Shown: positions 614 through 36,350 of the stretch, in pieces
How positions within the stretch are numbered: the first letter of the stretch is position 1
Layout: the number at the start of each line of letters is the position of its first letter
Assembly: GCF_028864145.1 (NCBI RefSeq)
Contig: NZ_JARBHJ010000022.1
Coordinates: forward strand, 1-42,770
Source: Actinotignum schaalii
Lineage (GTDB): Bacteria; Actinomycetota; Actinomycetes; Actinomycetales; Actinomycetaceae
DNA length: 42,770 nt
Reading direction: 5' to 3'
The notes under the pieces: generated by a model
Told to the model about the DNA's origin: nothing
Database searches by the model: none
What the model saw: only the letters and a program-made list of their open reading frames with translations
Translations under genes and position numbers: made by a program

Positions 614-1496
614 GGGAGACGTGGATTTGGATACGCTCTCGGAATGGTCTCCGGTTGTTTTTGACCTCTTAGATATTTTCGGGGTGTTCGTGGCGGCCAT
701 CCTTGGCGGCATGGTGGCCCGCGAAAAGTCCTTCGACATCGTTGGTTTCGTTATCGTGGCGATTATTAGCGCCCTGGGTGGCGGTATGCTGCGCGATGTC
801 CTCATCCAGCAGGCGCCGCTTCTCAAGGAACCGCCGGTGGCGCTTACCAATCCCTACTATCTCAGCTGTGCTCTGCTCGGGGCGCTGGTTGCTTATCTGC
901 TGCGCTTGCGCGGGAAATGGGTGCGGCGGTTTATGACGGTCATGGACGCTGCCGTTATGGGTGCCTGGACCGCCACCGGTGTTATCAAAACTCTCAATGC
1001 CGGATTGGGCGTGATGCCGGCGGTCATGATGGGCATGATTACCGCGGTGGGTGGCGGGCTTATCCGCGATATCACGGTGGGCCGCACCCCGGTGATTTTC
1101 GGCGGTAATACTCTTTATGCCACGGCATCGCTTATCGCGGCGTTCCCCGCGGTGGTTCTCTGGTACAACCACGCGCCGATGCTGGCGATGGCGGTTTCTA
1201 CCCTGCTCGCTTCGCTGCTGGTGATCCTGGCTCGCGTTTTCGAGTGGTCGCTGCCCGTGAATCGGGACTATTCCGTGAACGATACTCTCCAGCACGTCAG
1301 TTCTTCGCTGAGCCGGCGGATGCGTAGGTTGCGGGACGAAGAGCACCGTCGGCTTGCGCGCGCGGAACGCCAGGAACGTGCGGTACGACGGCGCAACCAA
1401 TCCCGCCAATCGCTTCGCGCGCGGGCACTGAGCAAGAAGAGCCAAGCGAATTCTTCCGGCTCGGGCGGCTCCGGAGATGCTGGCTCAAATGCTTAG
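612..1496 (+). CDS. TRIC/UPF0126 family membrane protein
   Basis: This integral membrane protein (up to 294 aa) has two repeats of the UPF0126/TRIC domain. The repeats carry the hallmark glycine-rich, arginine-containing motifs GGMLRDVL (about residues 57-64) and GGGLIRDI (about 140-147), plus RTPVIF and about seven hydrophobic segments. Family members form trimeric cation (K+) channels in crystal structures; glycine transport has also been proposed for some bacterial members, so the substrate is open. After residue about 225 a cytoplasmic tail follows, very rich in Arg and Ser/Gly (RRMRRLRDEEHRR), longer than in typical 200-residue members. The ATG at 612 lies within a likely -10 box, so GTG 621 is an alternative start. 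The stop overlaps the convergent ABC ATPase stop (1493). Confidence 0.85.
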   Translation: MGDVDLDTLSEWSPVVFDLLDIFGVFVAAILGGMVAREKSFDIVGFVIVAIISALGGGMLRDVLIQQAPLLKEPPVALTNPYYLSCALLGALVAYLLRLRGKWVRRFMTVMDAAVMGAWTATGVIKTLNAGLGVMPAVMMGMITAVGGGLIRDITVGRTPVIFGGNTLYATASLIAAFPAVVLWYNHAPMLAMAVSTLLASLLVILARVFEWSLPVNRDYSVNDTLQHVSSSLSRRMRRLRDEEHRRLARAERQERAVRRRNQSRQSLRARALSKKSQANSSGSGGSGDAGSNA

Positions 1497-2353
1497 TAAA
1501 TCGCGACCGGGCCGCAGGGGCCGGGAATCACATCAATCTCCGCGTCGAAAATCGCGGAAAGGCGTTCCGGGGTCATAATATCCGTCGGGGTGCCCGCGTC
1601 CATGACGATGCCCTCCCGCATGGCAATAATGCGATCCGAGTAGCGTGCCGCGAAATTAATATCATGGATAACCAGCACGATGGTGCGGTGGAGCTCATCC
1701 GCCGCCTGGCGTAGGTGGCGCATCATCTGCACCGAATGCGAAATATCCAGATTATTGAGAGGCTCATCCAACAGCACGCAATCGGTTTCCTGGGTGAGAA
1801 CCATCGCCACGTAGGCACGCTGGCGCTGCCCACCGGACAGCTCATCCAGGTAGCGCCCTTCCAACTCCGTGAGCCCCAGGAAATCAATATAGCGGGAGAT
1901 AATCTCCTCATCTTCGGCGGTCAGGCGCCCATTGGAATACGGGAACCTCCCGAAGCCAACCAGCTGGCGCACCGTCAGGCGAGTAACGAAGTGATTTTCC
2001 TGGCGTAGGATCGCGAGAATCTTGGCAAGATCGGCGGATTTCGTCGTCGTCACATCAAGACCCGCCACCGCAATCGCGCCCGAGTCCATACGCATGAGCC
2101 GCCCGATCATTGTGAGCAGTGTGGACTTACCCGCACCATTCGGGCCCACCAGCGCCGTGACCCCACCGTGCGGAATATCCAAAGTCACCGGGCCGATCCG
2201 CACCTCCGAACTGTAGTCGCGGCGGGTGCCCTCCATGCGGATCATCGGATCCGCGCAACTAAGGTCGGCCGCACGCAGATGCGGGGAAACCACCGGCGGT
2301 ACCGGTGCGGGAACCTCGATATGTGTGCCTGCTGTTTTCTTGCGGTGGCGCAT
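1493..2353 (-). CDS. Siderophore ABC importer, ATP-binding protein
   Basis: This cytoplasmic ATPase energises Fe3+-siderophore uptake by the neighbouring permeases (FecE/YclP/CeuD-like). Visible motifs are Walker A GPNGAGKST (70-78), signature LSGGQRQRA, Walker B CVLLDEP and the H-loop histidine in VLVIHDINFA. The ATG at 2353 overlaps the permease stop as TAATG, which favours coupled translation from here. The protein then carries about 36 extra N-terminal residues before MIRMEGT, the place where relatives usually begin. The extension is Pro-rich and of unknown use. It is the last gene of the operon and its stop overlaps that of the convergent TRIC gene. Family assignment is firm; the exact siderophore is not readable. 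Confidence 0.9.
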   Translation of the reverse strand: MRHRKKTAGTHIEVPAPVPPVVSPHLRAADLSCADPMIRMEGTRRDYSSEVRIGPVTLDIPHGGVTALVGPNGAGKSTLLTMIGRLMRMDSGAIAVAGLDVTTTKSADLAKILAILRQENHFVTRLTVRQLVGFGRFPYSNGRLTAEDEEIISRYIDFLGLTELEGRYLDELSGGQRQRAYVAMVLTQETDCVLLDEPLNNLDISHSVQMMRHLRQAADELHRTIVLVIHDINFAARYSDRIIAMREGIVMDAGTPTDIMTPERLSAIFDAEIDVIPGPCGPVAIY

Positions 2354-3408
2354 TACAACCGCCCCTTTCTCAGAACGACGACGAGGAACATCAGGCCGCC
2401 CACCAGTTCAATAATGATGGAGACCACGCCTTCCGCCGAGAAAATATTTTTCATCACGAAGAAGCCACCCATGAGTACCGCGTAGCCGATCACGGCGGCC
2501 ATGGGGAAGAGGAAACGGTGGTCGTAAGTATCCGCAGCTTGGTAGGTGAGGGTAGCAACCAGGAAACCGAAGAAGGTCATGGGCCCCACCAGCGCCGTGG
2601 ATACCGAGATAAGCACCGCGATAAGCGTGAGTGAAATAAGGAGCATCCGCAGGTGGTTGACGCCCAGCGACACCGCCACATCCCGCCCCAGCGCAATCGC
2701 ATTGAGGGAACGTGAAATGAGGAGGAGTGCCACCCCCGCGCCCAGCGCCAGCGGGAGCGCCGCCACGAACACATCCGAGCGAGCATTCGCGATAGTGCCG
2801 AACATGCGCGCAGAAAGCACATCGAATTCGGAAGGAGTAAGCATGCGTTGCATAAAAGCGGAAAGTGAGCCCAACCCGGTGCCGATAATAATGCCGATCA
2901 GCAGCATAATATGAAGGCTGCCGAGTTTGCCGCGCAGCAGCCACCCGTACAGTGCCAGCGCGCAGGCCACCATAATCGCCACCTGGATAAGGAAAGCCCG
3001 TACCCCGGTGAAAGCCACGAACCCGGCCACCCCGAAGAAGAAAATCGTGGAGGTATGAATCACTGAATACAGCGACTCAAAGCCCATAATCGACGGCGTG
3101 AGAATCCGGTTAGTGGTGACCGTCTGGAACGCGAGGGTGGCCAGCGACTGACAGAAGGCCACCAGTAGAATGGAAAACACCGCCTCGGCGCGCATCCGGG
3201 TGATAATCCAGAAACCTTCGGAGCCCACCGCCACCGGAATATTCCACACAAAGTAGAGCGCGGTGCAGGCTAAGCCGAGCAGCGCGGTGCCGATGAGCAG
3301 CAACCAGTAGCGCCGCCGCGCCCGCGGGGTTGCGAAAGCGTCCGCGTGGCGGGGAGCTTGTCCAGGAACGCATGATTTTTCGGGAGATTGTGGTACGACG
3401 ACGCTCAT
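2353..3408 (-). CDS. Siderophore ABC importer permease (YclO/CeuC-like)
   Basis: This 351-residue FecCD-family integral membrane permease has about nine to ten hydrophobic segments after a 35-residue cytoplasmic N-terminus. Characteristic stretches are TNRILTPSIMGFESLY, the internal LGVNHLR loop that couples to the ATPase, and VGPMTFFGFLVATLTY near the C-terminus. It should form a heterodimeric channel with the product of the upstream permease gene. The start ATG (3408) overlaps the upstream stop by 4 bases (ATGA). The dispersed word ACGACGACGC (3395-3404) lies across the first codons and encodes the VVV of MSVVVPQ. The two-permease arrangement matches enterobactin/petrobactin-type CeuBC or YclNO importers. 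Confidence 0.9.
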   Translation of the reverse strand: MSVVVPQSPEKSCVPGQAPRHADAFATPRARRRYWLLLIGTALLGLACTALYFVWNIPVAVGSEGFWIITRMRAEAVFSILLVAFCQSLATLAFQTVTTNRILTPSIMGFESLYSVIHTSTIFFFGVAGFVAFTGVRAFLIQVAIMVACALALYGWLLRGKLGSLHIMLLIGIIIGTGLGSLSAFMQRMLTPSEFDVLSARMFGTIANARSDVFVAALPLALGAGVALLLISRSLNAIALGRDVAVSLGVNHLRMLLISLTLIAVLISVSTALVGPMTFFGFLVATLTYQAADTYDHRFLFPMAAVIGYAVLMGGFFVMKNIFSAEGVVSIIIELVGGLMFLVVVLRKGRL

Positions 3409-5753: not shown

Positions 5754-5779
5754 CCGCGCGGCAGCGCGGCGGCGTCGTC
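5754..5779 (-). repeat. Copy 1 of a 26-base dispersed repeat with stem-loop
   Basis: The minus strand from 5779 to 5754 is identical over 26 bases to the plus strand 24165-24190. It begins GACGACGCCGCC and continues into a GC-only stem-loop with loop TGCC. Both copies are in intergenic DNA. The head is a variant of the ACGACGRCGC word found throughout the window, so this may be the longest form of a REP-like element. Confidence 0.7.
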
Positions 5780-7735: not shown

Positions 7736-8317
7736 ATGAAAAGAACACGTTTCGCGGCCCTGATCGCCGCCACCGCTACCGCCGCCGCGCTGACCCTGAG
7801 CGCCTGCTCGAATGACACTGCCACTACCGCGGATGCCACTACCGCGAATAGTAGCGCCACGCCCCAGGCCAGTGCCGTGGCACCGAGCTCCGATGCTCAT
7901 AATGGAAAGAACGACGACGCCGCCGCTGCCGCGGTGGGAGCCTGCGGGGCAGCCCATCTGGCCGCCACCTTCGAAGCCGGCAGCGCTGCTGGCACCCATA
8001 TCCTCACCCTCACGAATTCTTCGCAGGCGGCCTGCGCCCTGCATCCGGATGTGGAGATCGAGCTGAAAGACGCCGCCGGGGATGGCGTCTCTGAGAATCT
8101 GGAACTGAGCTCCCAGGCTGGCAGCATCGCTCCGGGTGCCAGCGTGAGCTGGACTGTGGCACTGGCCGATGCCGCGAGTGTGCCCGGGTGTGCTCCCACC
8201 AAGCCCGCCACCCATCTTGAGGTGGATATCGAGGATGGCGGGGAGGATATTGACATACCCGTCAATCTCACGGGCTGCCAGGATGATGATATCGACCTGC
8301 TGAGCGAAATCCGCTAG
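7736..8317 (+). CDS. DUF4232-type lipoprotein
   Basis: This 193-residue secreted lipoprotein has a signal peptide of about 22 residues ending LTLSAC, with Cys about 24 as the lipid site. A low-complexity Thr/Ala/Ser linker runs to about 65, where the dispersed word (7911-7920) encodes NDDAAA. The C-terminal domain resembles DUF4232: a conserved Cys after the linker (VGACGAAHL), LTLTNSSQAACALHPDVEIELKD, then GASVSWTVALAD and two later Cys residues. Function of the family is unknown; it is common in actinobacterial cell envelopes. It is monocistronic between divergent gnd and convergent pgm. Confidence 0.8.
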   Translation: MKRTRFAALIAATATAAALTLSACSNDTATTADATTANSSATPQASAVAPSSDAHNGKNDDAAAAAVGACGAAHLAATFEAGSAAGTHILTLTNSSQAACALHPDVEIELKDAAGDGVSENLELSSQAGSIAPGASVSWTVALADAASVPGCAPTKPATHLEVDIEDGGEDIDIPVNLTGCQDDDIDLLSEIR

Positions 8318-8360: not shown

Positions 8361-8394
8361 GCGTCGTCGTCGTTCCTATGTAGTGACGTACTTA

Positions 8395-10065: not shown

Positions 10066-11258
10066 ACATTGAGTATCCCACGAATTGCGCTCCAATCGCG
10101 GGACTTGTTCCGCGGGTGGATAACATCGCCGTTGCTGCCGTGCGTGCGGCTGTGTTCGGTGCCCTGCGCGCGGCTGTCCGCGGCTTCTGTGGCGCGCGCG
10201 AGTGCTTCGTGGAAATTCCCCCAGTGCCCGGCGCGCGCGGCCTGTGGAACTTCCTCGCCGGGGGCGACCGGCCCGGGCGCGGTGGAGCGTTCCCCACGGG
10301 TGGCCGGCCCGCCGAAAGGCGAGCCGCCTAAGACTTCGCGGCCGTGCGGGCTGAGCCATCCGGACGTATCCGGGCCTAGTGGCACGATCTGGTTGGGGTT
10401 CACATCCAGGTGGACTTGGTAATAATGCGAGGTGATGTGCTCAAAATCCACGGTGTCCCCGAAACCGGGGGTCTGGAAAAGATCGCGTGCGTAGGCCCAG
10501 AGTACCGGCATCTCGGTCAGTTTCTTTTCATTGCATTTAAAATGCCCGTGGTAGACGGCATCGAAACGCACCAGGGTGGTAAAGAGGCGCACATCCGCTT
10601 CGGTCATGTGATCGCCCATGAGGTAGCGGCGCCCCGCCAGCAGCTCGGAAATATTGCGCAGCGCCGTGAAAAGGCGCAGGTAAGCGCGGTTATAGGACTC
10701 CTGGCTGCCGGCGAACCCGCAGCGGTAGACGCCATTATTAATCTCGGTGTAGATATAGCGCATGAGCGCGTCCATGGGTTCGCGCAGTTCCGCGGGGTAG
10801 AGGTCCGGGGCGCCTTCGCGGTGGAAATCGCGCCACTCGGTAGAAAAATCGAGCGTCATCTGCGCAAAATCATTTGTGACGACGGCGCCGCTAGCAAGAT
10901 CCACCAGAGCTGGAACCGTAATTCCCAAGGAGAAATTCGGGTCGCGGGCCAGGTAGGCATCACGCAGGAAATGAATTCCGAGCACTGGATCCACCCCTCC
11001 CTCATCGCGGTCAAAAATCCAAGACCGCTCATCGTGGGTGGGGCCGGGGATGCCCAGCGATATAGCATTTTCCAGCCCGAGCAAGCGGCGCACAATCAGC
11101 GTGCGATTCGCCCACGGGCAGGCGCGCGCCGCGATGAGGCGGTAACGGCCCGGCTGCACGGGGAAACTGGCGCTGTCGCGGCTCACGCGCGTGGTGATGT
11201 AGCGAGCGTCGCGGCTGTAGCCTTCGCCGCGGCGAGTAAATGTTGCTCCGATGGTCAT
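10062..11258 (-). CDS. Glutathionyl-hydroquinone reductase-like (Xi-class GST fold)
   Basis: The first about 320 of 398 residues match the YqjG/EcM4 family. They have an N-terminal thioredoxin-like domain with the catalytic ACPWANR (Cys about 47), then VPALVD, the xi-class N-terminal features THDERSW and DPVLG, and a C-terminal helical domain with [26 protein letters not shown]. The enzyme family reduces glutathionyl-hydroquinones. Actinobacteria generally use mycothiol, so the thiol partner here may differ. After the usual end (HGRE) there is an unusual Pro/Gly/Arg-rich tail of about 85 residues. The start has GGAGG 5 bases upstream. It overlaps pgm by 4 bases and is expected to be cotranscribed. 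Confidence 0.88.
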
Positions 11259-12863: not shown

Positions 12864-14486
12864 TTATTTTCCTTCCTCGCGCGCGGGGGCTTCGCCGGGC
12901 AGCACGGTCACATAGCCGCCTTTGTCGCTCGCAATATGCCAGGTGCCCCCGAAGGTGGTGCTGGCCCAGTCGAGAATCTGCTGCGCATCCCCGTGCTTGG
13001 CCTTCGATTGGGGCGCGAAGACCACCGCGTTTGCCCAGGCATTCCCGCGGGTTCCCTCCCAGTACACCGTATTATTCGGCACCAGGTAGGCGAGCATATG
13101 AATATCGGTAACCACGTGGGAACCATCCGGCACCGCGGCCAGGGCTTCGCGCGCGCCGGCGCGCTCCTCTGCGCTTGCTCCGTCATAACGCCCTTGGATC
13201 CACCAGCCCACCGCGTTGGTGCGGGTACCGATCACCGTGGCAATCACGCTGGCCGCCAGGGCGAGCGCGATCAAGCCGCGCTTGACGTGCCCGCTGTACT
13301 TGATGCGCCTGCTGCGCGTGGCGCGTTCGCCGCGCGGGGTGCGCCCGCTAGGCTCCGCGTGCTCGGCACGTCCCGCAAAGGCCCGCAGCTTCGCGTAGCG
13401 CTCCAGTCCATCGAGCAGTGCAATGGTGGCAATTGGCATGAGCACGGCGGAATAATGCCATCCCAGGCCCCAGTAGTAATCCACGTTTCCCGTGAAACGC
13501 CAGGCCAGGGTCGGGAGCATAAGCAGAATCCACGGGCTGGCCAGGCCCACCACCCCGGCACTGCCCAGCAGTACCGCCAGGGTCATCAGCTTCGTAGACG
13601 CACCGGTGAAAAACCCGGCATCGCCCGTGAGGCGATCCGTGTAATCCCAGGCGCCGTCCGGATTGAAAGCCGGTAATAGCACTGCCACGGAGAGTACGAA
13701 CCACAGCGCGCCCCATACCGCCAGGCCCGCAGCCCAGCGCCCCGCGGGGGTGCGCCACGCGGTGGATAAGCGCGCTCGCGGTGCTGGCCCGCGCCGCTGC
13801 GGCGCGGCGTCGTCGTTCTGTTCCGCCACGCCGCAGACCGCCCGCCTTTGCGCGAAAAACTCCGCCAGCAGCGCGGCCGCACCGAAAGCGATGAGCGTGA
13901 GGCCGAGGTCTTCTTTGACGAAAACGAGCGTTCCGAGCGGGAGCGCGGCGCGGCGGTAGCGGCCTTCCACCCAGGCCGTCAGCCCGTAGGCGAGGAGGGG
14001 CACCGCGAAGGCGATCTCGTGGAATTGCGCGGCTACCGCGGCTGAAAGCCCCCAGGACACCGCGTAGAGCAGGCCGAGAGCGGTCCCCGCCCCGGCCCCG
14101 CAGCGCGCCCGCGCCAGGCGGGTGAGCGGAATCGCGGAGATCGCGAAGAGCGCGTTTTGCACAATAAGCAGGGTGGCACCGCTGGGCCACAGCGCGAAAA
14201 TCGGGCCGAGTACCACGAGGATGGGGTGGAAATGATCGCCCCACAGGTTGAAGCCGGGGCCTTTAATATCCACGATGGGGGCTTCGAGATGCGCGTAACG
14301 CTGGGCGAGCTGCGTGAAAATACCCAGGTCCCAGGAGGACGTCTGCAAAGAAGCCCATTGGTGCAGCGAAAAAGCGGTGAAAAGAATGAAACTGCCGAGC
14401 GCCACCAGGTAGGGAGCCGGGTCGGTGCGCAGCGGGCGGTACCAGGTCGCGGTGCGAGCCGGCGCCGTGCGGCGAGCCATCATCAT
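12864..14486 (-). CDS. DUF2079 multi-spanning membrane protein
   Basis: This is a 540-residue protein if translation starts at the first of three consecutive ATGs (14486), with AAGG about 11 bases upstream and 7 bases after the neighbour's stop. The frame extends further upstream but only through the neighbour. The DUF2079 signature SSWDLGIFTQLAQRYAH plus DIKGPGFNLWGDHFHPI is at about 50-90, followed by ten or more hydrophobic segments and an extracytoplasmic C-terminal part with DGSHVVTDIHMLAYLVP and YVTVLPGE. The arrangement (an acidic motif in the first loop, many helices, a soluble C-terminus) resembles GT-C glycosyltransferases, but no activity is established. It is a paralogue of the next gene upstream. 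The dispersed word lies in a cytoplasmic-type loop (13807-13816). Confidence 0.88.
   Translation of the reverse strand: MMMARRTAPARTATWYRPLRTDPAPYLVALGSFILFTAFSLHQWASLQTSSWDLGIFTQLAQRYAHLEAPIVDIKGPGFNLWGDHFHPILVVLGPIFALWPSGATLLIVQNALFAISAIPLTRLARARCGAGAGTALGLLYAVSWGLSAAVAAQFHEIAFAVPLLAYGLTAWVEGRYRRAALPLGTLVFVKEDLGLTLIAFGAAALLAEFFAQRRAVCGVAEQNDDAAPQRRGPAPRARLSTAWRTPAGRWAAGLAVWGALWFVLSVAVLLPAFNPDGAWDYTDRLTGDAGFFTGASTKLMTLAVLLGSAGVVGLASPWILLMLPTLAWRFTGNVDYYWGLGWHYSAVLMPIATIALLDGLERYAKLRAFAGRAEHAEPSGRTPRGERATRSRRIKYSGHVKRGLIALALAASVIATVIGTRTNAVGWWIQGRYDGASAEERAGAREALAAVPDGSHVVTDIHMLAYLVPNNTVYWEGTRGNAWANAVVFAPQSKAKHGDAQQILDWASTTFGGTWHIASDKGGYVTVLPGEAPAREEGK
13796..13816 (-). repeat. Dispersed word with GC stem-loop inside a DUF2079 gene
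   Basis: Minus-strand ACGACGACGC (13816-13807) is followed by a GC-rich inverted repeat of the form GCGCCGC-AGC-GGCGC, resembling the 26-base repeat at 24165. It encodes a DDAAP linker and sits in a Pro/Arg-rich hydrophilic loop between hydrophobic segments, where insertion would be tolerated. Confidence 0.5.
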
Positions 14487-14493: not shown

Positions 14494-16152
14494 TCACCTT
14501 CCGTCCGTGCCGTCGCGAGCCACCACCACATAGCCGGCTTCTTCCGTGACAATATGCCACTGTCCGCCAACTTTCGCGGTAATCCAGGCCACCACCTGGG
14601 CGCCGTCGCCGTGGTTGAGCCGGTTGGAGAACACCACCGTGTCAATATACGCGCCGCCGTAGCTGTGCTCCCAGTACACGGTATTACCTGGGACAACGTA
14701 GGCCATCATGACCACGTCGGCGAGGATATGCCGCCCGGTGCCGGCCGCCGCGACCGCAGCCCGGGCACCTTCGCGTTGCTCGGCGGTCTGGGTGGCGCCG
14801 TAATCGGAAAAATACACGTATTGCTGGGTATTGGAACGCCCCGTGAGCCAGGACCCGAAGCCGTTGGAGGCGGTGCCGAGCACACTGGAGCTCAGCGCGA
14901 GGGCGAGGGCCGCCGCGGCCAGGCGCGGGCGGCGAGCCAGCACACCTAAAGTTTCGCGTTGCGTGGTTGCGGCCGAGGGAGCTTGAGATTCTTGCGCCTC
15001 CGGTAGTGGTACGACGACGCCGCGCGCACCCGCCCGCGCGAGCCCATCGGTCAGCGCGACGGCGATCATCGGCGCGAGCACCGCCGAATAATGCCACAAA
15101 ATAGTCCAGTAATAGGGATTATCCCCCACGAAACGCCAGGCGAGAGTGGGTAGCAGCAGCGCCGCCCACGGGCTGCGCAGCCCCACGATTCCCAGGGCGG
15201 CCACAATATAGCAGAGGGTGCCCCAGCGGTTAGGTTCGAGGAGCATGCTCGCCAGGTCGAGGCCTTCGCGCACCCGCCCGGCGTAATCCCATTGCCCGGA
15301 ATTATTGAAAGCCGGGAGGATGACCTGGGTGGCGGCCAGGAACCAGGCGGTGCCCCAGGCGGCCAGGAAAGCGCCAATGCCGGCCAACTCGCGCCAGTCG
15401 CGCGCTCCGTGGCTGCCGCGCTGCCGGGCGCTGCCGGCCGCAGCCGCGCTACCGGTGCTGGACGCACCGTCGCGCCCGCGTGCTCCGCGCCAGCTGAGCA
15501 GCGCTACCAGCACCCCGAAGCAGGCCACCGTGAGGCCGAGGTCCTCCTTGACGAAAACCAGCAGGGAGATGAGCACGGCGGCGCGCCGGTAGCGGCCCTC
15601 CAGCCAGGCGGTCAGCCCGAAAGCAAGCAAGGGCACCGCGAAGGCGATTTCGTGGAATTGCACCACGAGCGCGGAGGTGAGCCCCCAGCTGGCCGCGTAA
15701 GCCACCCCGATGAGGGTACCCGGCACGGCCCCCACCCGCGCCCGGGCGAAACGCGCGATGGGATACACCGACATCCCGAAGAGCACCGCTTGGAGGGTGA
15801 GCAGGCTCAACCCGGAAGGCCAGAGCCAGAACAGCGGCCCGGTCAGCAGCAAAATGGGATGGAAATGATCGCCCCACAGGTTGAAGCCCGGGCCTTTAAT
15901 ATCCACGATGGGTGGGAATTGCCGGCGGGCGTACCGGTCGGCCAGCTGGGTGAAAATACCCTGATCCCACGAAGGGGAGGAGAAGTTCACCCAGGTATAC
16001 CAGGAAAAGAACATGTATACGGCGAAAGCACCCGCGGCCAGCAGCAGCGCCGTCGTATCACAGTGGTTGCATGCCCACGCGCGCACCACGGCCGTTCGCG
16101 AAGGTGCCCGCGCCCCGCGCGCTTCTATCTCCCGCGCCGGCCCGCCGCGCAT
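14494..16152 (-). CDS. DUF2079 multi-spanning membrane protein (paralogue)
   Basis: The 552-residue start at ATG 16152 overlaps the flippase stop as TAATG. It has the same DUF2079 signature: SPSWDQGIFTQLADRYARR, then DIKGPGFNLWGDHFHPI. It has about ten to eleven hydrophobic segments, FVKEDLGLT between helices, and a soluble C-terminus with HILADVVMMAYVVPGNTVYWEH. It is a tandem duplicate of the 12864-14486 gene: the two share long identical motifs but differ in loops and termini. Both a loop (15011-15020) and the N-terminal region (16047-16056) carry the dispersed word. The genetic link to a flippase-like protein suggests a role in building or exporting a cell-envelope polymer; this is inference. 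Confidence 0.88.
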   Translation of the reverse strand: MRGGPAREIEARGARAPSRTAVVRAWACNHCDTTALLLAAGAFAVYMFFSWYTWVNFSSPSWDQGIFTQLADRYARRQFPPIVDIKGPGFNLWGDHFHPILLLTGPLFWLWPSGLSLLTLQAVLFGMSVYPIARFARARVGAVPGTLIGVAYAASWGLTSALVVQFHEIAFAVPLLAFGLTAWLEGRYRRAAVLISLLVFVKEDLGLTVACFGVLVALLSWRGARGRDGASSTGSAAAAGSARQRGSHGARDWRELAGIGAFLAAWGTAWFLAATQVILPAFNNSGQWDYAGRVREGLDLASMLLEPNRWGTLCYIVAALGIVGLRSPWAALLLPTLAWRFVGDNPYYWTILWHYSAVLAPMIAVALTDGLARAGARGVVVPLPEAQESQAPSAATTQRETLGVLARRPRLAAAALALALSSSVLGTASNGFGSWLTGRSNTQQYVYFSDYGATQTAEQREGARAAVAAAGTGRHILADVVMMAYVVPGNTVYWEHSYGGAYIDTVVFSNRLNHGDGAQVVAWITAKVGGQWHIVTEEAGYVVVARDGTDGR

Positions 16153-24162: not shown

Positions 24163-24191
24163 ACGACGACGCCGCCGCGCTGCCGCGCGGC
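24163..24191 (+). repeat. Copy 2 of the 26-base dispersed repeat, with stem-loop
   Basis: ACGACGACGC (24163-24172) leads into a perfect 7-bp stem, GCCGCGC-TGCC-GCGCGGC (24174-24191). Bases 24165-24190 are identical to the minus strand of 5754-5779. The element lies between the purB stop (24213) and the dedA start, where the hairpin could also serve as the purB terminator. Confidence 0.7.
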
Positions 24192-24212: not shown

Positions 24213-25667
24213 TTAGCTGGCTGCGGTCCCGGGCGTGTCCTCCAGGAAATCCACGAGGCGGGCAGCCAGGCCGGTGTACCCGGCCGGAGTGAGAGCAAGA
24301 AGACGTTCCTCTATATCCCCCGGCAAACCCAAGCCCGCTATAAATTCCCGCATATCTGCCGCGGTGACCTTCCGCCCGCGGGTCAGCGCCTTGAGGCGCT
24401 CGTAAGGATCTTCCAAATGCTCAGCACCACCCAGGGCTGCGGCCCGCATGGCCTGCTGGATCGGTTCGCCCAGCACTTCCCAATTCGCGTCCAGTTCTGC
24501 TGCGAGCTTGGCGGGATTGGGATCCACCCCGGCCAGCCCGCGCCGCAAATTATCGAGGGCCAGGTAGGAATGCCCGAGCGCCACCCCGATATTGCGTTTC
24601 GTGGAGGAATCGGTGAGATCGCGCTGCATCCGGGAGGTCACCAGAGTCTGGCTGAGCACCCCGAAAAGCCCGGAGCTGATCTCCAGATTCGCTTCCGCAT
24701 TTTCGAAGCGAATGGGATTGACCTTATGCGGCATTGTCGAGGAGCCGGTCGAGCCCTGCGCCGCCAGGTTCTGATGGAAATAATCCAGGGAAATATAGGT
24801 CCACATATCGGTGGCGAGATTATGGGCGATGCGATTGACGTGCGCGATATCGTCGAAAAGATCGGCGAGCGCATCATAGGATTCAATCTGGGTGGTGAGC
24901 GGATTCCAGGTCAGCCCTAAGGATTCCACAAAATCGCGGGCCAGTCCCGGCCAGTTTGCCTCTGGAATCGCGGTGGCGTGCGCGGAAAAAGTCCCGGTGG
25001 CCCCGGAGAATTTCCCATAATATTCGGCGGTTTCCACCCGGCGCAGGGAACGGTGCAGGCGGTGCGCGAAAACGGCGAGCTCTTTGCCAACGGTGGTGGG
25101 CGAGGCCGGCTGCCCGTGGGTATGGGCCAGCATGGGTAGCTCCGCGTGGGTGCGGGCCAGCTCGCTCAGATCTGAAACCAGGCCCCAGGCGCGGGGCAAC
25201 CAGCAGCGGCGCACCGCGTCACGCACGCCCAGCGCCCAGGCCAGGCTATTAATATCTTCCGAGGTGCAGAAAATATGGACCATCTCGCGCAGGTGACCCA
25301 GCCCGCCTACGTCCATACGCTTCTTGATGAAGTATTCGACAGCTTTGACATCGTGCCGTGTTTCCGCCTCGATGATAGCCAGCTCGTGTGCCGCGGCGTC
25401 GTCGAACTTTTCAGGAAGCGACCGCAAATATACGACGGCGCTGTCGGGCAGCGCCCCCACCCCGGGAATCACCGCGCGTTCGCACAGGAAAATCAACCAT
25501 TCGACTTCCACGTGAATTCGGTAGCGGTTGAGCGCGGCCTCGCACAGGTAGGGCTGCAGCGGGGCGGTGGCGCTGGCGTAGCGGCCATCTAGGGGGGAAA
25601 GCTGCCCGGAAATATTCAGGACGGGGGTGGATGCGGAAGTTGATTCTGGCGCGCGCTGCTCACTCAT
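24213..25667 (-). CDS. purB: Adenylosuccinate lyase
   Basis: PurB cleaves SAICAR to AICAR and adenylosuccinate to AMP, releasing fumarate, in purine synthesis. The 484-residue protein has the fumarase/aspartase-superfamily signature GSSTMPHKVNP, LSPLDGRYAS at the N-terminus, and TSEDINSLAW and AHTHGQPASPTT with the catalytic histidine region, all as in the E. coli type. The frame is open upstream, but ATG 25667 is the natural start. CAGAAT lies exactly 6 bases before it, so the mRNA may be leaderless. Within the gene, the dispersed word at 25432 is followed by a perfect 7-bp inverted repeat. Confidence 0.96.
   Translation of the reverse strand: MSEQRAPESTSASTPVLNISGQLSPLDGRYASATAPLQPYLCEAALNRYRIHVEVEWLIFLCERAVIPGVGALPDSAVVYLRSLPEKFDDAAAHELAIIEAETRHDVKAVEYFIKKRMDVGGLGHLREMVHIFCTSEDINSLAWALGVRDAVRRCWLPRAWGLVSDLSELARTHAELPMLAHTHGQPASPTTVGKELAVFAHRLHRSLRRVETAEYYGKFSGATGTFSAHATAIPEANWPGLARDFVESLGLTWNPLTTQIESYDALADLFDDIAHVNRIAHNLATDMWTYISLDYFHQNLAAQGSTGSSTMPHKVNPIRFENAEANLEISSGLFGVLSQTLVTSRMQRDLTDSSTKRNIGVALGHSYLALDNLRRGLAGVDPNPAKLAAELDANWEVLGEPIQQAMRAAALGGAEHLEDPYERLKALTRGRKVTAADMREFIAGLGLPGDIEERLLALTPAGYTGLAARLVDFLEDTPGTAAS
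25432..25455 (+). repeat. Dispersed word with perfect stem-loop inside purB
   Basis: ACGACGGCGC (25432-25441) overlaps GGCGCTG (25437-25443), which pairs perfectly with CAGCGCC (25449-25455) around TCGGG. It has the same head-plus-palindrome architecture as the intergenic copies, here within coding sequence. Confidence 0.5.
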
Positions 25668-26760: not shown

Positions 26761-27867
26761 ATGCAATGGTTCCGCCCCGAATTAGCCGATCTGCCCAGCT
26801 ACGTTGCCGGGAAACGCCCCCGCAATGCCGATAGCGTCAAGCTCTCCAGCAACGAAGTACCTTTCCCACCCACCCCGGCGGTGGCCGCCGCGCTCGCGGC
26901 CGCGGTTGATCAGGGTGGGGAGCTCAATCGCTATCCCGATATGTCCTGCGCGCAGCTCACCGCCGCGCTCGCGGCCCATGAGAACTGGGATCCGTCCGGC
27001 ATCGTGGTGGGCAATGGTTCCACCGCCCTCATCGAAAAATTCCTGCAAGCCGTGGTCACCCCGGGCGGCGAAGTAGTCAGCCCGTGGCGTTCTTTCGAGG
27101 CCTACCCCATCGCCACCATTGCCGCGGGCGGGCGCTTCGTGGGCGTGCCGCTGCGCGCGGATGGCACCCATGACCTGGAAGCCATGGCCGCCGCCATCAC
27201 GGAAAATACCCGCGCTATCCTCCTGTGTTCGCCCAATAATCCCACCGGAACCACCATTCCGCACGCCGAGCTCGCTAGCTTCCTGAGCCGGGTTCCCGCC
27301 CGCATTCCGATACTCCTTGACGAGGCCTATATCCACTTCGCTCCCGCGGTAGGTGAGAGCCAGGCGAGCCGCGCCGTCGTACAAAACGGTAAGGAACTGG
27401 CGCGCCAGTACCCGAATGTGGCGGTGGCCCGCACTTTTTCCAAGGCTTTTGCGCTGGCCGGGCTGCGGCTGGGTTACCTGCTCACCAGCCCCGCGCTGGC
27501 CGAACCGCTGCGCCGTATCGCCACGCCTTTCGGTGTGAATCGCCTCGCTCAGGTGGCCGGCCAAGCTGCCCTCAGCGAAGCGGATATCGTGCTGGAGCGC
27601 GCCGCGCAGCTCGCCGGCGCCCGCGATGAACTGGCCGCCCAGCTCGCGGCGGCCGGCTGGCACACGCCTACCTCCCACGCGAATTTCCTGTGGATGTCCG
27701 CGGCTGAACTGGCTCGCCACGGGGTGAGCGCCGCACGTTTCGAGGATGCGTGCATGGATGCCGGGGTACTGGTGCGGGTGCTCGGCGAAGGGGTGCGCGT
27801 GAGCGTGGCCGAACCGGAAGGTAGCACCCGGGTGCTTGCCGCCGTGGGCGCGCTGGCCCGCAGCTAG
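26761..27867 (+). CDS. Histidinol-phosphate / aromatic amino acid aminotransferase
   Basis: This PLP enzyme of fold type I, family HisC, has 368 residues. Visible are KLSSNEVPFPP near the N-terminus, SPNNPTG, LDEAYIHF, the Schiff-base lysine segment TFSKAFALAGLRLGYL, and RVLGEGVRVSV at the C-terminus. It transfers an amino group between glutamate and imidazole-acetol phosphate or an aromatic 2-oxo acid. No his genes are nearby, so the phenylalanine/aromatic aminotransferase (Pat) role is as likely as histidine synthesis. ATG 26761 gives MQWFRPELADLP, the expected N-terminus. CACAAT precedes it by 6 bases, although AGAAGA could act as a weak ribosome site. Confidence 0.88.
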   Translation: MQWFRPELADLPSYVAGKRPRNADSVKLSSNEVPFPPTPAVAAALAAAVDQGGELNRYPDMSCAQLTAALAAHENWDPSGIVVGNGSTALIEKFLQAVVTPGGEVVSPWRSFEAYPIATIAAGGRFVGVPLRADGTHDLEAMAAAITENTRAILLCSPNNPTGTTIPHAELASFLSRVPARIPILLDEAYIHFAPAVGESQASRAVVQNGKELARQYPNVAVARTFSKAFALAGLRLGYLLTSPALAEPLRRIATPFGVNRLAQVAGQAALSEADIVLERAAQLAGARDELAAQLAAAGWHTPTSHANFLWMSAAELARHGVSAARFEDACMDAGVLVRVLGEGVRVSVAEPEGSTRVLAAVGALARS

Positions 27868-27924: not shown

Positions 27925-28720
27925 AGAACAATTCTTCGGCGGCCCGCCGCACCGTAAACCCGTGGCCGGTCAGCTCCGACCAGCAGGAAATGCCGGCGTA
28001 TTGGTCGGCGGTGCAGGCGAAGCCGTGCGCGGCTACCACGCTGCCGTAGGGCACCTCTTTGGCGGTGCTCACCTGGGTGGAACACCCGGCGGTGGTGGTG
28101 CCCGTCAGACCCACGGTGTAATTGGCAGGTTCGCCTTCGCAGCCGGGCGGGGACACGTAGTCATAGGTGAAAATCGTGCAATTGACGGCTTTTTCGTCAA
28201 GGGAGCAGCGCACGTTATTCATCGGGGTGGTGAAAGATTCCAGCCGGGTGGCCTCCGGTGGTGCGGGCCGCACCAGTTTCCACCACTGGCGCGAGGCCGC
28301 GAAAGATTGGAAATCCGCCGGTGCGGCAATATCGCCGAGCGCCGTGCTCAAGCTCAGGGTGTATTCGGCCCCGCAGCTGGAGGAGAGGGTGCGCAGGGCC
28401 TCGGTGAGGAGCGGTGCCTCAGCGGTATAGGTGCCGCCCGCGGCCGCCGCGGTCGCGTAATCGGCCAGGGTTGCCGCCGCGTTCTCCGGATTTGGGCAGG
28501 CGCCCGAGCGCAAGTCGTGGACCTGGTTGCGCAGCTGGGTGAGATCAGCGGAGGCGCTGCGCCCGGGTTCGGGGCCCGCGGTGGTGGGTGCCGGTGCGGC
28601 GGCGTCGTCGCTAGAAAAATACGAGACCCCCACGAGGGCGAGCACGCCCGCAAGAACGGCAGCCGCGAAGAGCAAGAAATACAGCGGCCATCGCGCCGGG
28701 CCGTGCGCGCCGTGTTTCAT
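27923..28720 (-). CDS. Membrane-anchored protein with DUF6636-like domain
   Basis: This 265-residue protein starts at ATG 28720 with AGGAG 5 bases upstream. A short basic N-terminus is followed by one membrane helix (WPLYFLLFAAAVLAGVLALVG, about 12-32), then a flexible DDAAAPAPTT linker and an extracytoplasmic region. The C-terminal about 100 residues (NNVRCSLDEKAVNC...YGSVVAAHGFACTADQYAGISCWSELTGHGFTVRR) match the Cys-rich DUF6636 pattern, with Cys pairs and GHGF near the end. Function unknown. The linker coincides with a variant of the dispersed word at 28602. It lies downstream of the Nudix gene. Confidence 0.75.
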   Translation of the reverse strand: MKHGAHGPARWPLYFLLFAAAVLAGVLALVGVSYFSSDDAAAPAPTTAGPEPGRSASADLTQLRNQVHDLRSGACPNPENAAATLADYATAAAAGGTYTAEAPLLTEALRTLSSSCGAEYTLSLSTALGDIAAPADFQSFAASRQWWKLVRPAPPEATRLESFTTPMNNVRCSLDEKAVNCTIFTYDYVSPPGCEGEPANYTVGLTGTTTAGCSTQVSTAKEVPYGSVVAAHGFACTADQYAGISCWSELTGHGFTVRRAAEELF

Positions 28721-28787
28721 GCGTACTCCTTGTGCTGGGGATTGTCCTCCTAGGTTACGGCACCGCGCGCCGTGCGTCATCTTAGGA

Positions 28788-28803
28788 ACGACGGCGCAGC
28801 TAG
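28788..28803 (+). repeat. Dispersed word, intergenic copy
   Basis: ACGACGGCGC followed by AGCTAG lies in the short gap between the Nudix gene (end 28841) and the DUF6636 gene (start 28720). The 14 bases ACGACGGCGCAGCT also occur at 21456 in copA. Confidence 0.6.
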
Positions 28804-28840
28804 GGCGCCTGCCCGCCGCGGCCCCCACCGTAGCTTTCGG

Positions 28841-29542: not shown

Positions 29543-32239
29543 ATGACCCACCACTGGAGTTCTAAGGCGTTTTTCGGCTCCGGGGAGTTCCTCGTTCCAT
29601 CAGTTAACCGATCTTTGCTTGCCTGGCCCGCGGAGCAGATAGCGGAGGGTGACCGCTTTGAGCTGTGGGCCTGCCCGGATGGAGCCGGCACGCTCGGGGA
29701 TCGGGAGCGTGGTGATAGGAGCGCAGAACAGCTCGGCATCAAGCGGCTTTGCACCCTCGCGGTGGATCCGGACGGTATCCCGGCCGCGGCTATTTCCACG
29801 CGCGCACACCTGTCCGGCTATGCCGCGCTGCGCCTGAGCGGCGTGCCCTCCCACCAGTTGCGTGAGGCGCTGCGCGGGCAGCTTCTGGTGGCGCGCCGTA
29901 ACGGTGCCGGGGAACTCAGCGCTCTCACCGGGGTGCAGATCGCCGGGATGATTGATGATCTTTACGCGGGTGCCCGCCAGGCATGCCTCGGTGTCACGTG
30001 GAACGGGGATGCGCCCGCGGTGGCACTGTGGGCGCCCACCGCCCGCCAGGTTCGTATTGAGGTGACGGGTGCGGGCAACGGCGCTGGTGTGGGGCCCGCT
30101 GGCCCCACCACGCACGCCATGACCCGCGATGAGCTGGGTATCTGGCACGCCAGCGGTACTCCGGCCTGGAAGAACGCCAGCTATCTTTTCGAGGTCGAGG
30201 TTGTGGAACCCCGGGCGGGCACCGTGGTGACTTACCGGGTGACCGACCCCTACGCGGTGGCCCTCACGGTGGATTCCGAGCGCGCGGTTTTCGTGGATCT
30301 GGACGACCCGGCCTACCAGCCAGAACTCTGGCGCACTGCCCCGCGGCGCACCCTCGCCAACCCGGCTGCCCACACCATTTACGAGTTGCACGTGCGCGAT
30401 TTTTCAATGTCGGATCCCACCGTTCCCGATCACCTGCGCGGGAAATACGGTGCGTTCACGCTGCCGGACTCGGCCGGGATGCGCCACCTGCGCGCCCTGG
30501 CCGAGGCCGGAATGACCACCGTTCACCTCCTCCCCACCTTCGATATCGCCACCATTCCCGAACGCCCCGAGAACCAGAAGACTCCGCGCATCCCGCCGGC
30601 CGGCCCGGATTCCCCGGCCCAGCAGCAGGCCGTGAGCGCGGTGGCGGATTCCGACGCCTATAACTGGGGCTACGATCCGTTCCACTACCTGGCACCGGAA
30701 GGTAGCTACGCGGTGGAGCTCAATGGCGGGGCACGCATCAAAGAATTCCGTGCCATGGTGGGAGGGCTGCATGCGGCTGGCCTCGGCGTCGTACTCGATC
30801 AGGTCTACAACCACACGGCCGCAGCCGGCGGGGATGCCGTCTCCGTTCTCGATAAAGTGGTGCCCGGTTATTATTACCGTCTGGACGCGCGCGGCACTAT
30901 CGCTACGTCCACCTGCTGCCCGAATGTGGCGACCGAAAACCTTATGGCGGAGAAACTCATGGTGGATGCGGTGGTGCTGTGGGCCAAGCACTATCGCGTG
31001 GACGGGTTTCGTTTCGATCTCATGGGCCACCATTCGCGCGCGAATATGGAGGCGGTGCGTGCCGCTCTCGATGCCCTGACGGTGGAGCGGGATGGCGTTG
31101 ACGGTGCGCGTATCTACCTCTACGGGGAGGGCTGGAATTTCGGGGAGGTGGCCGATAACGCGCGTTTCCGCCAGGCCACCCAGCTGGAGATGAACGATAC
31201 CGGTATCGGGGCTTTCAATGATCGCCTGCGGGATGCCGTCAACGGTGGCGGGCCTTTCGATTCCGATAAACGCCACCACCAGGGCTACGGCACCGGCCTG
31301 TTCACCGACCCGAATGGCCACAGCCCGTGCTCCCCGCAGGAGAACCACGAACGCCTCGGGCACGCCACCGACCTGGTCAAACTCTCCCTGGCCGGGGCCC
31401 TGCGCGATTTTAGTTTCCTCACCCACACCGGGGAATGGAAAAGCGGAGCCGAGCTGGATTACGGCGGACGGCCCGCCGGTTTCGCCTCCCAGCCCCAGGA
31501 AGCCGTCAATTACGTGGACGCGCATGATAACGAAACCCTGTGGGATAGTGGTGCCTACAAACTGCCGCTCTCCCTCAGTACCGATGATCGTATCCGGATG
31601 GCGCTGCTCTCCCTGGCCACGGTGGCGCTCGGCCAGGCCCCGGCTTTCTGGCACGCGGGCACCGAGCTGCTCCGCTCGAAGTCCCTGGACCGAGATTCCT
31701 ATAATTCCGGGGACCATTTCAATCGCCTGGATTTCTCCGGGCAGAGCAATAATTTCGGGGTGGGCCTGCCGCCCGCCAGCCGCAACGAGGCATCCTGGCC
31801 GGTCATGAGGCCGCTGCTAGCGCGCCCTGAACTGCGCCCCAACCCGGAACAGATCGCCCGCGCGGCCGCCATCGCCCGCGACCTGCTGCGCTTGCGCCAC
31901 TCCAGCCCGCTCATCACCCTGGGAAGCGCGGAGCTCATCCGCGCGAAAGTCACTTTCCCCAACGGTGGGCCCGGCGCCACCCCCGGCCTCATCATTATGC
32001 GCATCGACGATACCGCCGGCCCGGATAGTGACCCGCAGCTCGACGGCATCATCATCGCCTTCAACGCCTCCCCGCGCCCCATCACGGAAAAAATCGAGGG
32101 CGTCACGGAAACCTACGCGCTGTCGCCCATTCAGCGGCATGGGTACGACGACGCAGTTCGCGGCGCCACGCTTATTGGCGGCACCGTTACTGTGCCAGCG
32201 CGCTCCGTCGCGGTCTTTCTGCTGGCCCAGCGATCCTAG
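29543..32239 (+). CDS. pulA: Pullulanase-type alpha-1,6-glucosidase (GH13)
   Basis: This 898-residue enzyme hydrolyses alpha-1,6 branches in pullulan, starch or limit dextrins. ATG 29543 has AGGAG 6 bases upstream. No signal peptide is seen, so it is cytoplasmic. An N-terminal CBM48-like beta domain (about 130-270, ALWAPTARQVRIEVTG) precedes the GH13 barrel. The barrel has the pullulanase hallmark YNWGYDP, VVLDQVYNHT, the nucleophile motif DGFRFDLMGHH, the acid/base YGEGWNFGE and VDAHDNETLWD. It belongs to the pullulanase-type subfamily rather than GlgX. Partners such as phosphorylase are not in the window; Pgm would handle the Glc-1-P. The dispersed word (32145-32154) lies near the C-terminal end, encoding YDDAV. 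Confidence 0.93.
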   Translation: MTHHWSSKAFFGSGEFLVPSVNRSLLAWPAEQIAEGDRFELWACPDGAGTLGDRERGDRSAEQLGIKRLCTLAVDPDGIPAAAISTRAHLSGYAALRLSGVPSHQLREALRGQLLVARRNGAGELSALTGVQIAGMIDDLYAGARQACLGVTWNGDAPAVALWAPTARQVRIEVTGAGNGAGVGPAGPTTHAMTRDELGIWHASGTPAWKNASYLFEVEVVEPRAGTVVTYRVTDPYAVALTVDSERAVFVDLDDPAYQPELWRTAPRRTLANPAAHTIYELHVRDFSMSDPTVPDHLRGKYGAFTLPDSAGMRHLRALAEAGMTTVHLLPTFDIATIPERPENQKTPRIPPAGPDSPAQQQAVSAVADSDAYNWGYDPFHYLAPEGSYAVELNGGARIKEFRAMVGGLHAAGLGVVLDQVYNHTAAAGGDAVSVLDKVVPGYYYRLDARGTIATSTCCPNVATENLMAEKLMVDAVVLWAKHYRVDGFRFDLMGHHSRANMEAVRAALDALTVERDGVDGARIYLYGEGWNFGEVADNARFRQATQLEMNDTGIGAFNDRLRDAVNGGGPFDSDKRHHQGYGTGLFTDPNGHSPCSPQENHERLGHATDLVKLSLAGALRDFSFLTHTGEWKSGAELDYGGRPAGFASQPQEAVNYVDAHDNETLWDSGAYKLPLSLSTDDRIRMALLSLATVALGQAPAFWHAGTELLRSKSLDRDSYNSGDHFNRLDFSGQSNNFGVGLPPASRNEASWPVMRPLLARPELRPNPEQIARAAAIARDLLRLRHSSPLITLGSAELIRAKVTFPNGGPGATPGLIIMRIDDTAGPDSDPQLDGIIIAFNASPRPITEKIEGVTETYALSPIQRHGYDDAVRGATLIGGTVTVPARSVAVFLLAQRS

Positions 32240-34975: not shown

Positions 34976-34981
34976 GCATTA

Positions 34982-34987
34982 AGCGTA
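34982..34987 (-). promoter_or_regulatory. -10 box (TACGCT), leaderless start of the acuI-like gene
   Basis: TACGCT on the minus strand ends exactly 6 bases before ATG 34975. Confidence 0.45.
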
Positions 34988-35135
34988 CCGGCGCGGCACG
35001 CGAGGTGCTTTTACCGCTACTATCTGAAGTAGACCCGGCGCGTGAGCCGGGCACAAGGCGCAGATAGGGTCAGCCGCTACTTCCACGCATTCGCAACGAT
35101 GGCGGTCCCGCCCTATCCTGGCGGAAAGGTGATTC

Positions 35136-36350
35136 ATGATCAACATTAAAGAGGCGGTGGATTATTTCACCCCCTGGCAAGAAGAGCTTTATATCCACCT
35201 GCATCAGCATCCCGAACTCTCTATGCAGGAAAAAGAAACCTGTGACACTATCGACGCGGAACTAACGCGCCTCGGGTACGCAACGCAGCGGATCGGCGGC
35301 GGCGTCGTCGGTGTGCTGGAAAACGGGGAGGGGCCCGCGGTGCTCTTCCGCGCCGATATTGACGGGCTCCCGGTCAAGGAAGCGACCGGGCTCGAGTACG
35401 CATCCACGCAGACGCGCACGGACACGGACGGCAACGAAGTCCCGGCCATGCACGCCTGCGGCCACGATTTCCATATTTCTTGCGCCCTGGGCGCGGCACG
35501 TATTTTCGCGGAAAACCGCGAGGCGTGGGCCGGCACCTATATCGCGCTATTCCAGCCCGGGGAAGAAACCGCGGCCGGGGCACGCTCCATGGTGGCCGAC
35601 GGCCTGGTCGATAAGATTCCGGCGCCGGATGTGGCTCTGGGGCAGCACGTGCTGGCCGGGCCGATGCGCGCGGGGCAGGTCGGCACCCACGCCGGGGCGA
35701 TTCTCTCCACCGGTGCTTCCGTCAAGGTGACGCTGCACGGGAAGGGCTCGCACGGGTCCATGCCGCATCTGAGTATTGACCCGGTGGTGCTGGCCGCCGC
35801 CGTGGTGACCAGGCTCCAGAGCGTGGTGGCGCGCGAAATTAATCCCTTCAAGATGGCGGTGCTCACCGTGGGCTCCATCCACGCCGGAAGCAAATCAAAT
35901 ATTATTCCGGACACCGCCACCCTGCTTATTAATATTCGCGCGTACGATATGGACGTGCGCGAACAGCTCCTCGATGGCATTAAGCGCACCGTCACGGCCG
36001 AATGCGAAGCGGCCCGCGCCCCGCAGGCACCGGAATTTGAGATCTACGATTCCTACCCGCTTACTAATAACGACGACGCAACTACCGCCAAGGTCACCCA
36101 GGCATTCCTGGCACACTTCGGGGAAGAGCGCGTGATGGACTGCGGCGAAGTATCGGCTTCCGAAGATTTCAGCGTGATCCCGGACGCCTTCGGGATTCCC
36201 TACACCTACTGGGGCTTCGGTGGTTTCGCGGAAGGCGCGCCCACCTACCCCAACCACAACCCCGCCTTCGGGCCGGTTCTCCAACCCACCCTCGCCACCG
36301 GCACCGAAGCCGCGGCCGTTGCCGCGCTCGCCTGGCTGGCGCGGGACTAG
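35136..36350 (+). CDS. M20D-family amidohydrolase
   Basis: This 404-residue metal-dependent hydrolase is of the hippurate/N-acyl-amino-acid amidohydrolase group (M20D). It shows the metal-binding motif HACGHD (106-111), PGEETAAGA with catalytic Glu residues (143-144), HGKGSHGSMPH in the lid domain, and a C-terminal SASEDFS. It cleaves acyl or aminobenzoyl groups from amino acids; the precise substrate is unknown. There is no signal peptide. GGAAAGG lies 7 bases before ATG 35136. The MFS transporter follows 36 bases later on the same strand and may import its substrate or export its product. The word at 36070 encodes NDDAT in a surface loop. Confidence 0.9.
   Translation: MINIKEAVDYFTPWQEELYIHLHQHPELSMQEKETCDTIDAELTRLGYATQRIGGGVVGVLENGEGPAVLFRADIDGLPVKEATGLEYASTQTRTDTDGNEVPAMHACGHDFHISCALGAARIFAENREAWAGTYIALFQPGEETAAGARSMVADGLVDKIPAPDVALGQHVLAGPMRAGQVGTHAGAILSTGASVKVTLHGKGSHGSMPHLSIDPVVLAAAVVTRLQSVVAREINPFKMAVLTVGSIHAGSKSNIIPDTATLLINIRAYDMDVREQLLDGIKRTVTAECEAARAPQAPEFEIYDSYPLTNNDDATTAKVTQAFLAHFGEERVMDCGEVSASEDFSVIPDAFGIPYTYWGFGGFAEGAPTYPNHNPAFGPVLQPTLATGTEAAAVAALAWLARD

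Follow-up and report, generated by a model that had tools for sequence, protein, structure and literature searches.

The 42,770-nucleotide contig NZ_JARBHJ010000022.1 of Actinotignum schaalii (assembly GCF_028864145.1), which we refer to here as the window, raises the question of why a single short word should recur throughout it on both strands. A sequence-only reading of this DNA had counted 15 exact copies of the 10-mer ACGACGRCGC, had expected fewer than one by chance, and had offered a DNA-uptake-type signal, a repetitive extragenic palindromic (REP)-like element or a nucleoid-protein site as possible explanations. All 15 copies were recovered, each with the position and strand it had been given, and 100 dinucleotide shuffles of the window yielded a mean of 0.50 copies (maximum 5). 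The evidence set out below is drawn from the sequence of this and related genomes, and from it we lean towards regarding the word as the core of a genome-wide, oriented, replication-unbiased element resembling a DNA-uptake signal; uptake is the best supported of the three original explanations, and a REP-like element is not supported.

The assembly that contains the window (G000; 2,208,209 bases in 77 contigs) carries 281 forward and 256 reverse copies of ACGACGRCGC, 537 in all or one per ~4.1 kb, compared with 50 (27 and 23) for the reversed word, which is the only standard against which the genome-wide excess was judged. The codon-aware excess was measured in a 443 kb sample, about 20% of the genome, made up of the window plus 20 further stretches, each of 20 kb. 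Genes were called there with a simple codon-score caller of our own (334 genes, 81% coding) and, because their starts are approximate, the intergenic share is somewhat inflated. Within genes 73 copies were observed, against 6.3 ± 2.5 (maximum 14) in 50 synonymous-codon shuffles and 6.5 (maximum 12) when the following base was also kept; between genes there were 36, against 0.5 ± 0.7 (maximum 3) in 50 order-3 Markov simulations. These figures correspond to excesses of ~11-fold and ~70-fold respectively. An extended 13-mer, RGWACGACGNCGC, gave 44 coding copies where 1.6 were expected and 27 intergenic copies where 0.1 were expected, although this form was derived from the same 443 kb and the test of its spread that is free of data reuse is the count across 151 genomes described below. 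The word is thus genuine and does not owe its frequency in the sampled 443 kb to codon usage; the excess over a codon-aware expectation, which the earlier reading had put forward as its own check, stands in this sample.

The consensus itself needed some revision. Position 7 is occupied by A in 30% of cases, C in 35%, G in 29% and T in 6%, and therefore the R placed there originally is better replaced, giving ACGACGNCGC. Written in this way the word has 26 copies in the window, eight of which form four overlapping pairs offset by 3 bases, and the near copies that had been listed by hand prove to be either one-off variants or ACGACGCCGC copies lying within a few bases of the coordinate given. 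Alignment of 362 ACGACGNCGC sites, from the samples of G000 and of a related complete genome (G017), revealed a rigid CGACGNCG core with A strongly preferred on its 5' side and C on its 3' side; in coding sequence this consensus is 9.1x over shuffle, and other end bases around the core reach 2.6-5.0x. The full element spans ~25 bp and comprises an AT-rich stretch of ~10 bp, RGW, ACGACGNCGC and a GC-rich flank, the commonest bases at -3 to -1 being R, G and G/T/A. At -10 to -6 the AT content is 52% for coding and 56% for intergenic copies, falling to 32-42% beyond -11, and at +15 to +19 it is 26% and 17% respectively. The A or T noticed originally before most copies is part of this wider AT-rich 5' flank. 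No repeat was found extending past the word and its soft flanks.

In the G000 sample 50 of 182 ACGACGNCGC sites and 27 of 71 13-mers are intergenic, whilst intergenic sequence makes up ~19% of the total. Such copies, which point either way, are found close to the 3' as well as the 5' ends of genes. Among 265 sites in genes longer than 300 nt, 26 fall in the last 60 nt and 14 in the first 60 nt, with ~14 expected for each end. Reading frames favour one orientation of the word (84:48 in G000 and 85:54 in G017), and more of the coding ACGACGRCGC copies fall in the frame xAC GAC GNC GCx than in any other (28 of 73). Spacing is close to random, with coefficients of variation of 1.0 and 1.1, and each of 20 stretches of G017 contains between 1 and 12 copies of ACGACGRCGC. 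Taking dnaA of G017 at 1,531,748 and assuming the terminus to lie opposite, the same 20 stretches hold 92 leading-strand and 106 lagging-strand ACGACGNCGC sites, 32 and 33 13-mers, and 50 and 70 copies of ACGACGRCGC (p 0.08). This balance rules out the polarity of an FtsK-orienting polar sequence (KOPS), as the mixed orientation in the window had been taken to indicate, although against a Chi site the same observation argues less strongly than had been implied. Terminator-like inverted pairs were considered and rejected: at separations of 10-60 bases we found one pair, which was inverted, among the 182 G000 sites, and six among 198 sites in G017, three of them inverted.

A further line of evidence comes from the comparison of G000 with G017. 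From 39 alignments we kept the 22 that had at least 600 columns and more than 80% identity, excluding the comEC loci of three other species, which left 55 kb at 89.2% identity. When 34 G000 sites were aligned to G017, 30 kept all nine fixed bases, four had a one-base change and none stood opposite a gap. Of the 38 G017 sites aligned to G000, 30 were intact, three had one-base and four two-base changes, and one lay opposite a gap. Three of the four sites with two changes are second, overlapping copies, and the gapped site sits within a perfect 39-bp tandem duplication (L050:7267 and 7306) that carries one copy of the word per unit and is missing from G000. Pooling both directions, 60 of 72 sites are intact, compared with 372 of 832 sites of 337 permuted words (Fisher p ~1e-10) and, as a further control, 70 of 181 sites of the 59 permutations that keep CG. 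The pooled comparisons are not independent of each other; for a single direction, in this one species pair and 55 kb, p is 5e-7. The conserved sites inside genes lie in several frames and both orientations. The sites are thus upheld by selection or drive at the level of single bases, and not by insertion of an element.

In a survey of 151 genomes of the family, six belong to the genus; five of these have 275, 321, 251, 315 and 282 copies of the 13-mer and the sixth (G105) has four, reversed-word controls in these genomes giving 0-6. Among 80 matches listed for the 6PGD protein, the closest one with a name is from Buchananella hordeovulneris, at 71%; identical pattern counts suggest that G043 is that species, and hence that the family is the Actinomycetaceae. 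The remaining 145 genomes contain 0-46 copies (G031 has 46, G094 44, and G001, G118 and G125 43 each), and the maximum is 56 among 110 genomes from 19 other families of the order (119 were searched, nine of them from the family itself). The CGACGNCG core is more widespread, with codon-aware excesses of 2.2-4.5x in G037, G031, G026, G024 and G109, a weak 1.7x in G043 (g11), and ratios of 1.2 in G042, 0.7 in G138 and 0.8 in G011. In GC-rich genera the 10-mer shows a milder excess that is partly codon-driven, and the milder core excesses read as dialects of an older signal, to which gene-specific codon bias could contribute a part. De novo word counts, in which palindromes are counted on both strands, i.e. 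twice, gave no clear equivalent in G042 or G138 (g10); runs of N had been removed before some of these counts in G105 and the other genera, and before the CGACGNCG ratios. The AT-richer sister species G105 has another enriched word, TTTTTCGACGACGA-like (L055-L064, L213-L222). In G135 (L168-L169) the counts returned TTTCACGTGAAA, at nine places in 40 kb, a palindrome that we take to be parS-like, and this suggests that the word search picks up known chromosomal sites.

The word is also missing from putatively foreign DNA. Two G000 stretches, L009 and L013, contain no sites, and L011 contains none beyond an overlapping pair at 8,926 and 8,929. Phage families were matched by nine of ten tested proteins in L013, four of five in L009 and four of four in L011 beyond 9.5 kb, the matches including DNA polymerase, primase-helicase, anti-repressor, DarB-like, minor tail, terminase, portal and head proteins. 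Taken as prophage, these stretches together hold no sites in 50.5 kb where 23.7 were expected. They had been picked for their missing sites and low GC, the L011 boundary was drawn with knowledge of where its sites lay, and the phage screen covered these stretches.

We then considered which machinery might read such a word. A comEC gene is found in all six genomes of the genus and in 149 of the 151 family genomes, and therefore does not discriminate, so that nothing can be learnt from correlating the word with ComEC across the family. In G000, the genome in which comEA was checked, a comEA-like gene (SLBB and HHH domains) adjoins comEC (Competence and Lactamase_B), whereas ComEC of G105 (L029:511-2376) ends after the Competence domain with no Lactamase_B match. 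An apparent relation between ComEC open-frame length and the word was discarded, as open frames lengthen with GC. Leaving out a third, weak T2SSE match below the cut-off in each genome, G105 has one TadA-type ATPase and each of the five genomes rich in the word has two. The second cluster, tad2, runs in G000 from prfB through three TadE-like or pilin-like genes, a Flp-like pilin, tadC, tadB and tadA to an APH-family gene and an AdnB-like gene. Two of the three TadE-like proteins gave weak Tad/TadE matches below the cut-off, the Flp-like pilin is our reading of a 70-residue open reading frame (ORF) without a family hit, and 'AdnB-like' is our label for a UvrD-type helicase with a PD-(D/E)XK nuclease domain. 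The latter gene (L021:12623-16465) and the APH-fold gene (L021:11617-12675), which falls below the cut-offs of all the NCBIfam resistance models shown, flank tad2. This order and its flanks are common to G017, G031, G037, G026 and G055, TadE1 going undetected in G031 and G026, and the conserved placing of pilus genes next to resection genes is suggestive. In G105 none of the seven tad2 genes was detected between the flanks (L063:7347-7554), tadA2 is absent from the whole assembly, and yet the prfB, ABC, APH-family and AdnB-like genes have each been retained. Given that the same order is found with the cluster in four genomes of three other genera, this implies a loss of tad2 in G105. In the actinobacterium Micrococcus luteus, according to the relevant passages of PMC4322843, transformation requires tad genes of two clusters. 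Considering this requirement together with the presence of tad2 in the word-rich genomes and its loss from G105, our hypothesis by analogy is that tad2 provides this group with its competence pilus, which the word would serve.

If the word is indeed an uptake signal, it would mark self DNA for uptake during natural transformation. A surface receptor, within the tad2 or com system, would bind the core and so bias uptake, and the three TadE-like proteins and the Flp-like pilin of tad2 are candidate receptors only, with ComEA as another possibility. The AT-rich side of the element might ease bending or opening of the helix, the pilus together with ComEA and ComEC would draw the DNA in, and uptake followed by recombination would then spread and preserve the word by molecular drive. 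We somewhat favour this reading since it explains together the many copies on both strands, their occurrence in genes as well as between them, the preference for gene ends, the orientation in reading frames, the AT-rich side, the point conservation, the absence from prophages and the dialects. Taken further, we give about even chances to the broader proposal, framed likewise from genome comparison, that the genus, and perhaps much of the family through related words, possesses an uptake signal for self-recognition that a competence pilus of the Tad/Flp type reads, the loss of the signal in one species being coupled to that of the pilus cluster. Such signals would then have arisen independently a third time, and for the first time both beyond the Neisseriaceae and Pasteurellaceae and in a Gram-positive lineage. 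In the open-access literature that we searched, no actinobacterial uptake sequence came up. If true, a third case, in an actinobacterium and with another type of pilus, would imply that such signals evolve repeatedly; it would also provide a new place to seek the receptor and open Tad-pilus transformation in this phylum to direct testing. Should the function be a different one, a chromosomal word that is ~tenfold over-represented, point-conserved and, in its full form, confined to one lineage still needs explaining.

Several observations weigh against an uptake function. Intergenic copies more often point against the gene closest to them (34 of 48 copies in G000, 33 of 57 in G017 and 67 of 105 overall, p 0.006), a lean that uptake does not predict. 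One-mismatch neighbours are in excess only at positions 0 and 9, the seven inner positions giving 0.3-2.0x; with inner changes not clearly enriched, the excess is sharp, whereas molecular drive would predict a broad halo of one-mismatch variants. The link between tad2 and the word within the genus is a single loss, in a species that also differs in GC (51%) and in ComEC. The cluster is not strictly necessary for the core, since G105 still shows a 2.2x codon-aware excess of CGACGNCG, with different flanks. Nor is tadA2 sufficient: g19, g20 and g27 have it in every one of the 11 genomes sampled, and in each of these the 10-mer is no more frequent than its reversed-word control. Among 17 sampled genomes, the 14 with tadA2 have core ratios of 1.2-4.5 and the three without have 0.7, 0.8 and 2.2, but seven of these genomes are represented by no more than 28-55 kb each, and this family-wide correlation is loose and confounded by GC. 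The p value for the prophage stretches (5e-11) is descriptive only and not a priori, since the choice was post hoc, and the absence of the word there would also fit a Chi site. Finally, in the relevant passages of a 2025 paper the Neisseriaceae and Pasteurellaceae are the sole families known to use such motifs (PMC12616744).

A Chi-like site, at which a resection enzyme (of the AdnAB type in actinobacteria) would read the word and switch from degradation to recombination, sparing self DNA, is one alternative, and absence of the word from the prophage stretches would fit it. The density of the 10-mer is of the order of that of Chi in E. coli, and the AdnB-like helicase-nuclease gene and a second long gene adjoin tad2. 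Chi is, however, usually biased in replication direction, which is not the case for this word, and a short word recognised on one strand would not be expected to show strong intergenic enrichment and an extended AT/GC flank. G105, where the 13-mer has all but disappeared, also keeps the AdnB-like gene, though in diverged form (44-56% identity), and overall we consider a Chi-like role improbable. A site for a nucleoid-associated or chromosome-organising protein, or for a global regulator, spread over the chromosome, would fit the presence of ACGACGRCGC copies in all 20 G017 stretches, their occurrence on both strands, the conserved sites, the intergenic enrichment and the lean against the nearest gene. 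Set against this are the base-for-base conservation inside genes across several frames and both orientations, the copies near 3' as well as 5' gene ends, and a form that changes sharply between lineages of one genus. We think such a site unlikely, if still worth keeping in mind.

The two remaining alternatives fare considerably worse. Codon usage, amino-acid bias (GAC GAC GCC, 'DDA') or base composition would account for the single frame that holds the largest share of coding copies and for the milder core excess in GC-rich relatives, but not for the excess over synonymous shuffles, the far larger excess between genes or the AT-rich flank; as sole causes, codon usage and composition are ruled out for the 443 kb sample by the codon-aware nulls, and we regard any explanation of this kind as very improbable. 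Hardly credible at all is a dispersed repeat, whether REP, miniature inverted-repeat transposable element (MITE) or another short mobile repeat. It would share with the word its many copies, many of them intergenic, but there is nothing repeated beyond the word and its flanks, the aligned G000 sites show no gaps, the single gap among the G017 sites is a copy within a tandem duplication, and close inverted pairs are few. REP and MITE elements were accordingly rejected for want of an extended repeat, an inverted structure or insertion-type presence and absence.

The sites in the window are collected in Table 1. Long G/C homopolymers are a separate feature of this DNA: in the window, G12 is followed directly by C18 at 8331-8360, between convergent genes, and a G11 lies at 32279, whilst elsewhere in G000 a C18 or C26 occurs within ~100 bp of contig starts (L020:101; L024:71). 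These may be variable tracts where the assembly broke, or artefacts.

Table 1. Copies of the word in the window, with strand and local context.
Sequence	Position	Strand	Context
ACGACGGCGC	1385..1394	+	5' flank ggt; within gene 612-1496
ACGACGACGC	3395..3404	+	5' flank ggt; intergenic by gene calls, but inside longest ORF 2353-3408 (-) at next-gene junction
ACGACGCCGC	5769..5778	-	intergenic
ACGACGACGCCGC	7911..7923	+	overlapping copies 7911 and 7914; 5' flank aga
ACGACGACGC	8361..8370	-	intergenic; abuts G12C18 tract 8331-8360
ACGACGGCGC	10879..10888	+	antisense within gene 10062-11258
ACGACGACGCCGC	13804..13816	-	overlapping copies 13804 and 13807; 5' flank aga
ACGACGACGCCGC	15011..15023	+	overlapping copies 15011 and 15014; 5' flank ggt
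ACGACGGCGC	16047..16056	-	within gene 14494-16089
ACGACGTCGC	18631..18640	-	within gene 16152-18947
ACGACGCCGC	19295..19304	-	within gene 18997-21492
ACGACGCCGC	21098..21107	-	within gene 18997-21492
ACGACGGCGC	21456..21465	+	5' flank ggt; antisense within gene 18997-21492
ACGACGACGCCGC	24163..24175	+	overlapping copies 24163 and 24166; intergenic
ACGACGCCGC	25393..25402	-	within gene 24213-25667
ACGACGGCGC	25432..25441	+	antisense within gene 24213-25667
ACGACGGCGC	27371..27380	-	antisense within gene 26761-27867
ACGACGCCGC	28599..28608	-	within gene 27923-28720
ACGACGGCGC	28788..28797	+	5' flank gga; intergenic by gene calls (inside longest ORF 27923-28828)
ACGACGACGC	32145..32154	+	5' flank ggt; within pullulanase-type gene 29615-32239
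ACGACGCCGC	35299..35308	-	antisense within gene 35136-36350
ACGACGACGC	36070..36079	+	within M20 peptidase gene 35136-36350

The findings share features with four known systems. Chi of RecBCD and AddAB is likewise a short, frequent word, and absence from the prophage stretches is a further likeness, but the word described here lacks strand polarity and has long asymmetric flanks and intergenic enrichment. The DNA uptake sequence (DUS) of the Neisseriaceae, read by the minor pilin ComP, is also a short word of ~10-13 bp with lineage dialects and frequent intergenic copies, and differs in that few terminator-like inverted pairs are formed by the word here; no ComP homologue came up, none having been searched for. 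In gene content there is a likeness to the Tad/Flp competence pilus of M. luteus, an actinobacterium with a tadA-B-C-flp-TadE-like cluster together with comEA and comEC, although the term 'uptake sequence' does not appear in the paper that describes it (PMC4322843). The uptake signal sequence (USS) of the Pasteurellaceae is a different word in a different kind of host, one served by a type IVa rather than a Tad-type pilus, and the actinobacterial word lacks the inner one-mismatch halo and reaches about one third of the density of the USS in H. influenzae. The two share hundreds of copies on both strands, placement within and between genes, a preference for gene ends and lineage dialects. Known uptake sequences favour one orientation in reading frames, as the word does here, in the relevant passages of PMC2346458, and the AT-rich flank is reminiscent of the AT-rich regions that lie on one side of the USS core, as described in part of PMC12616744.

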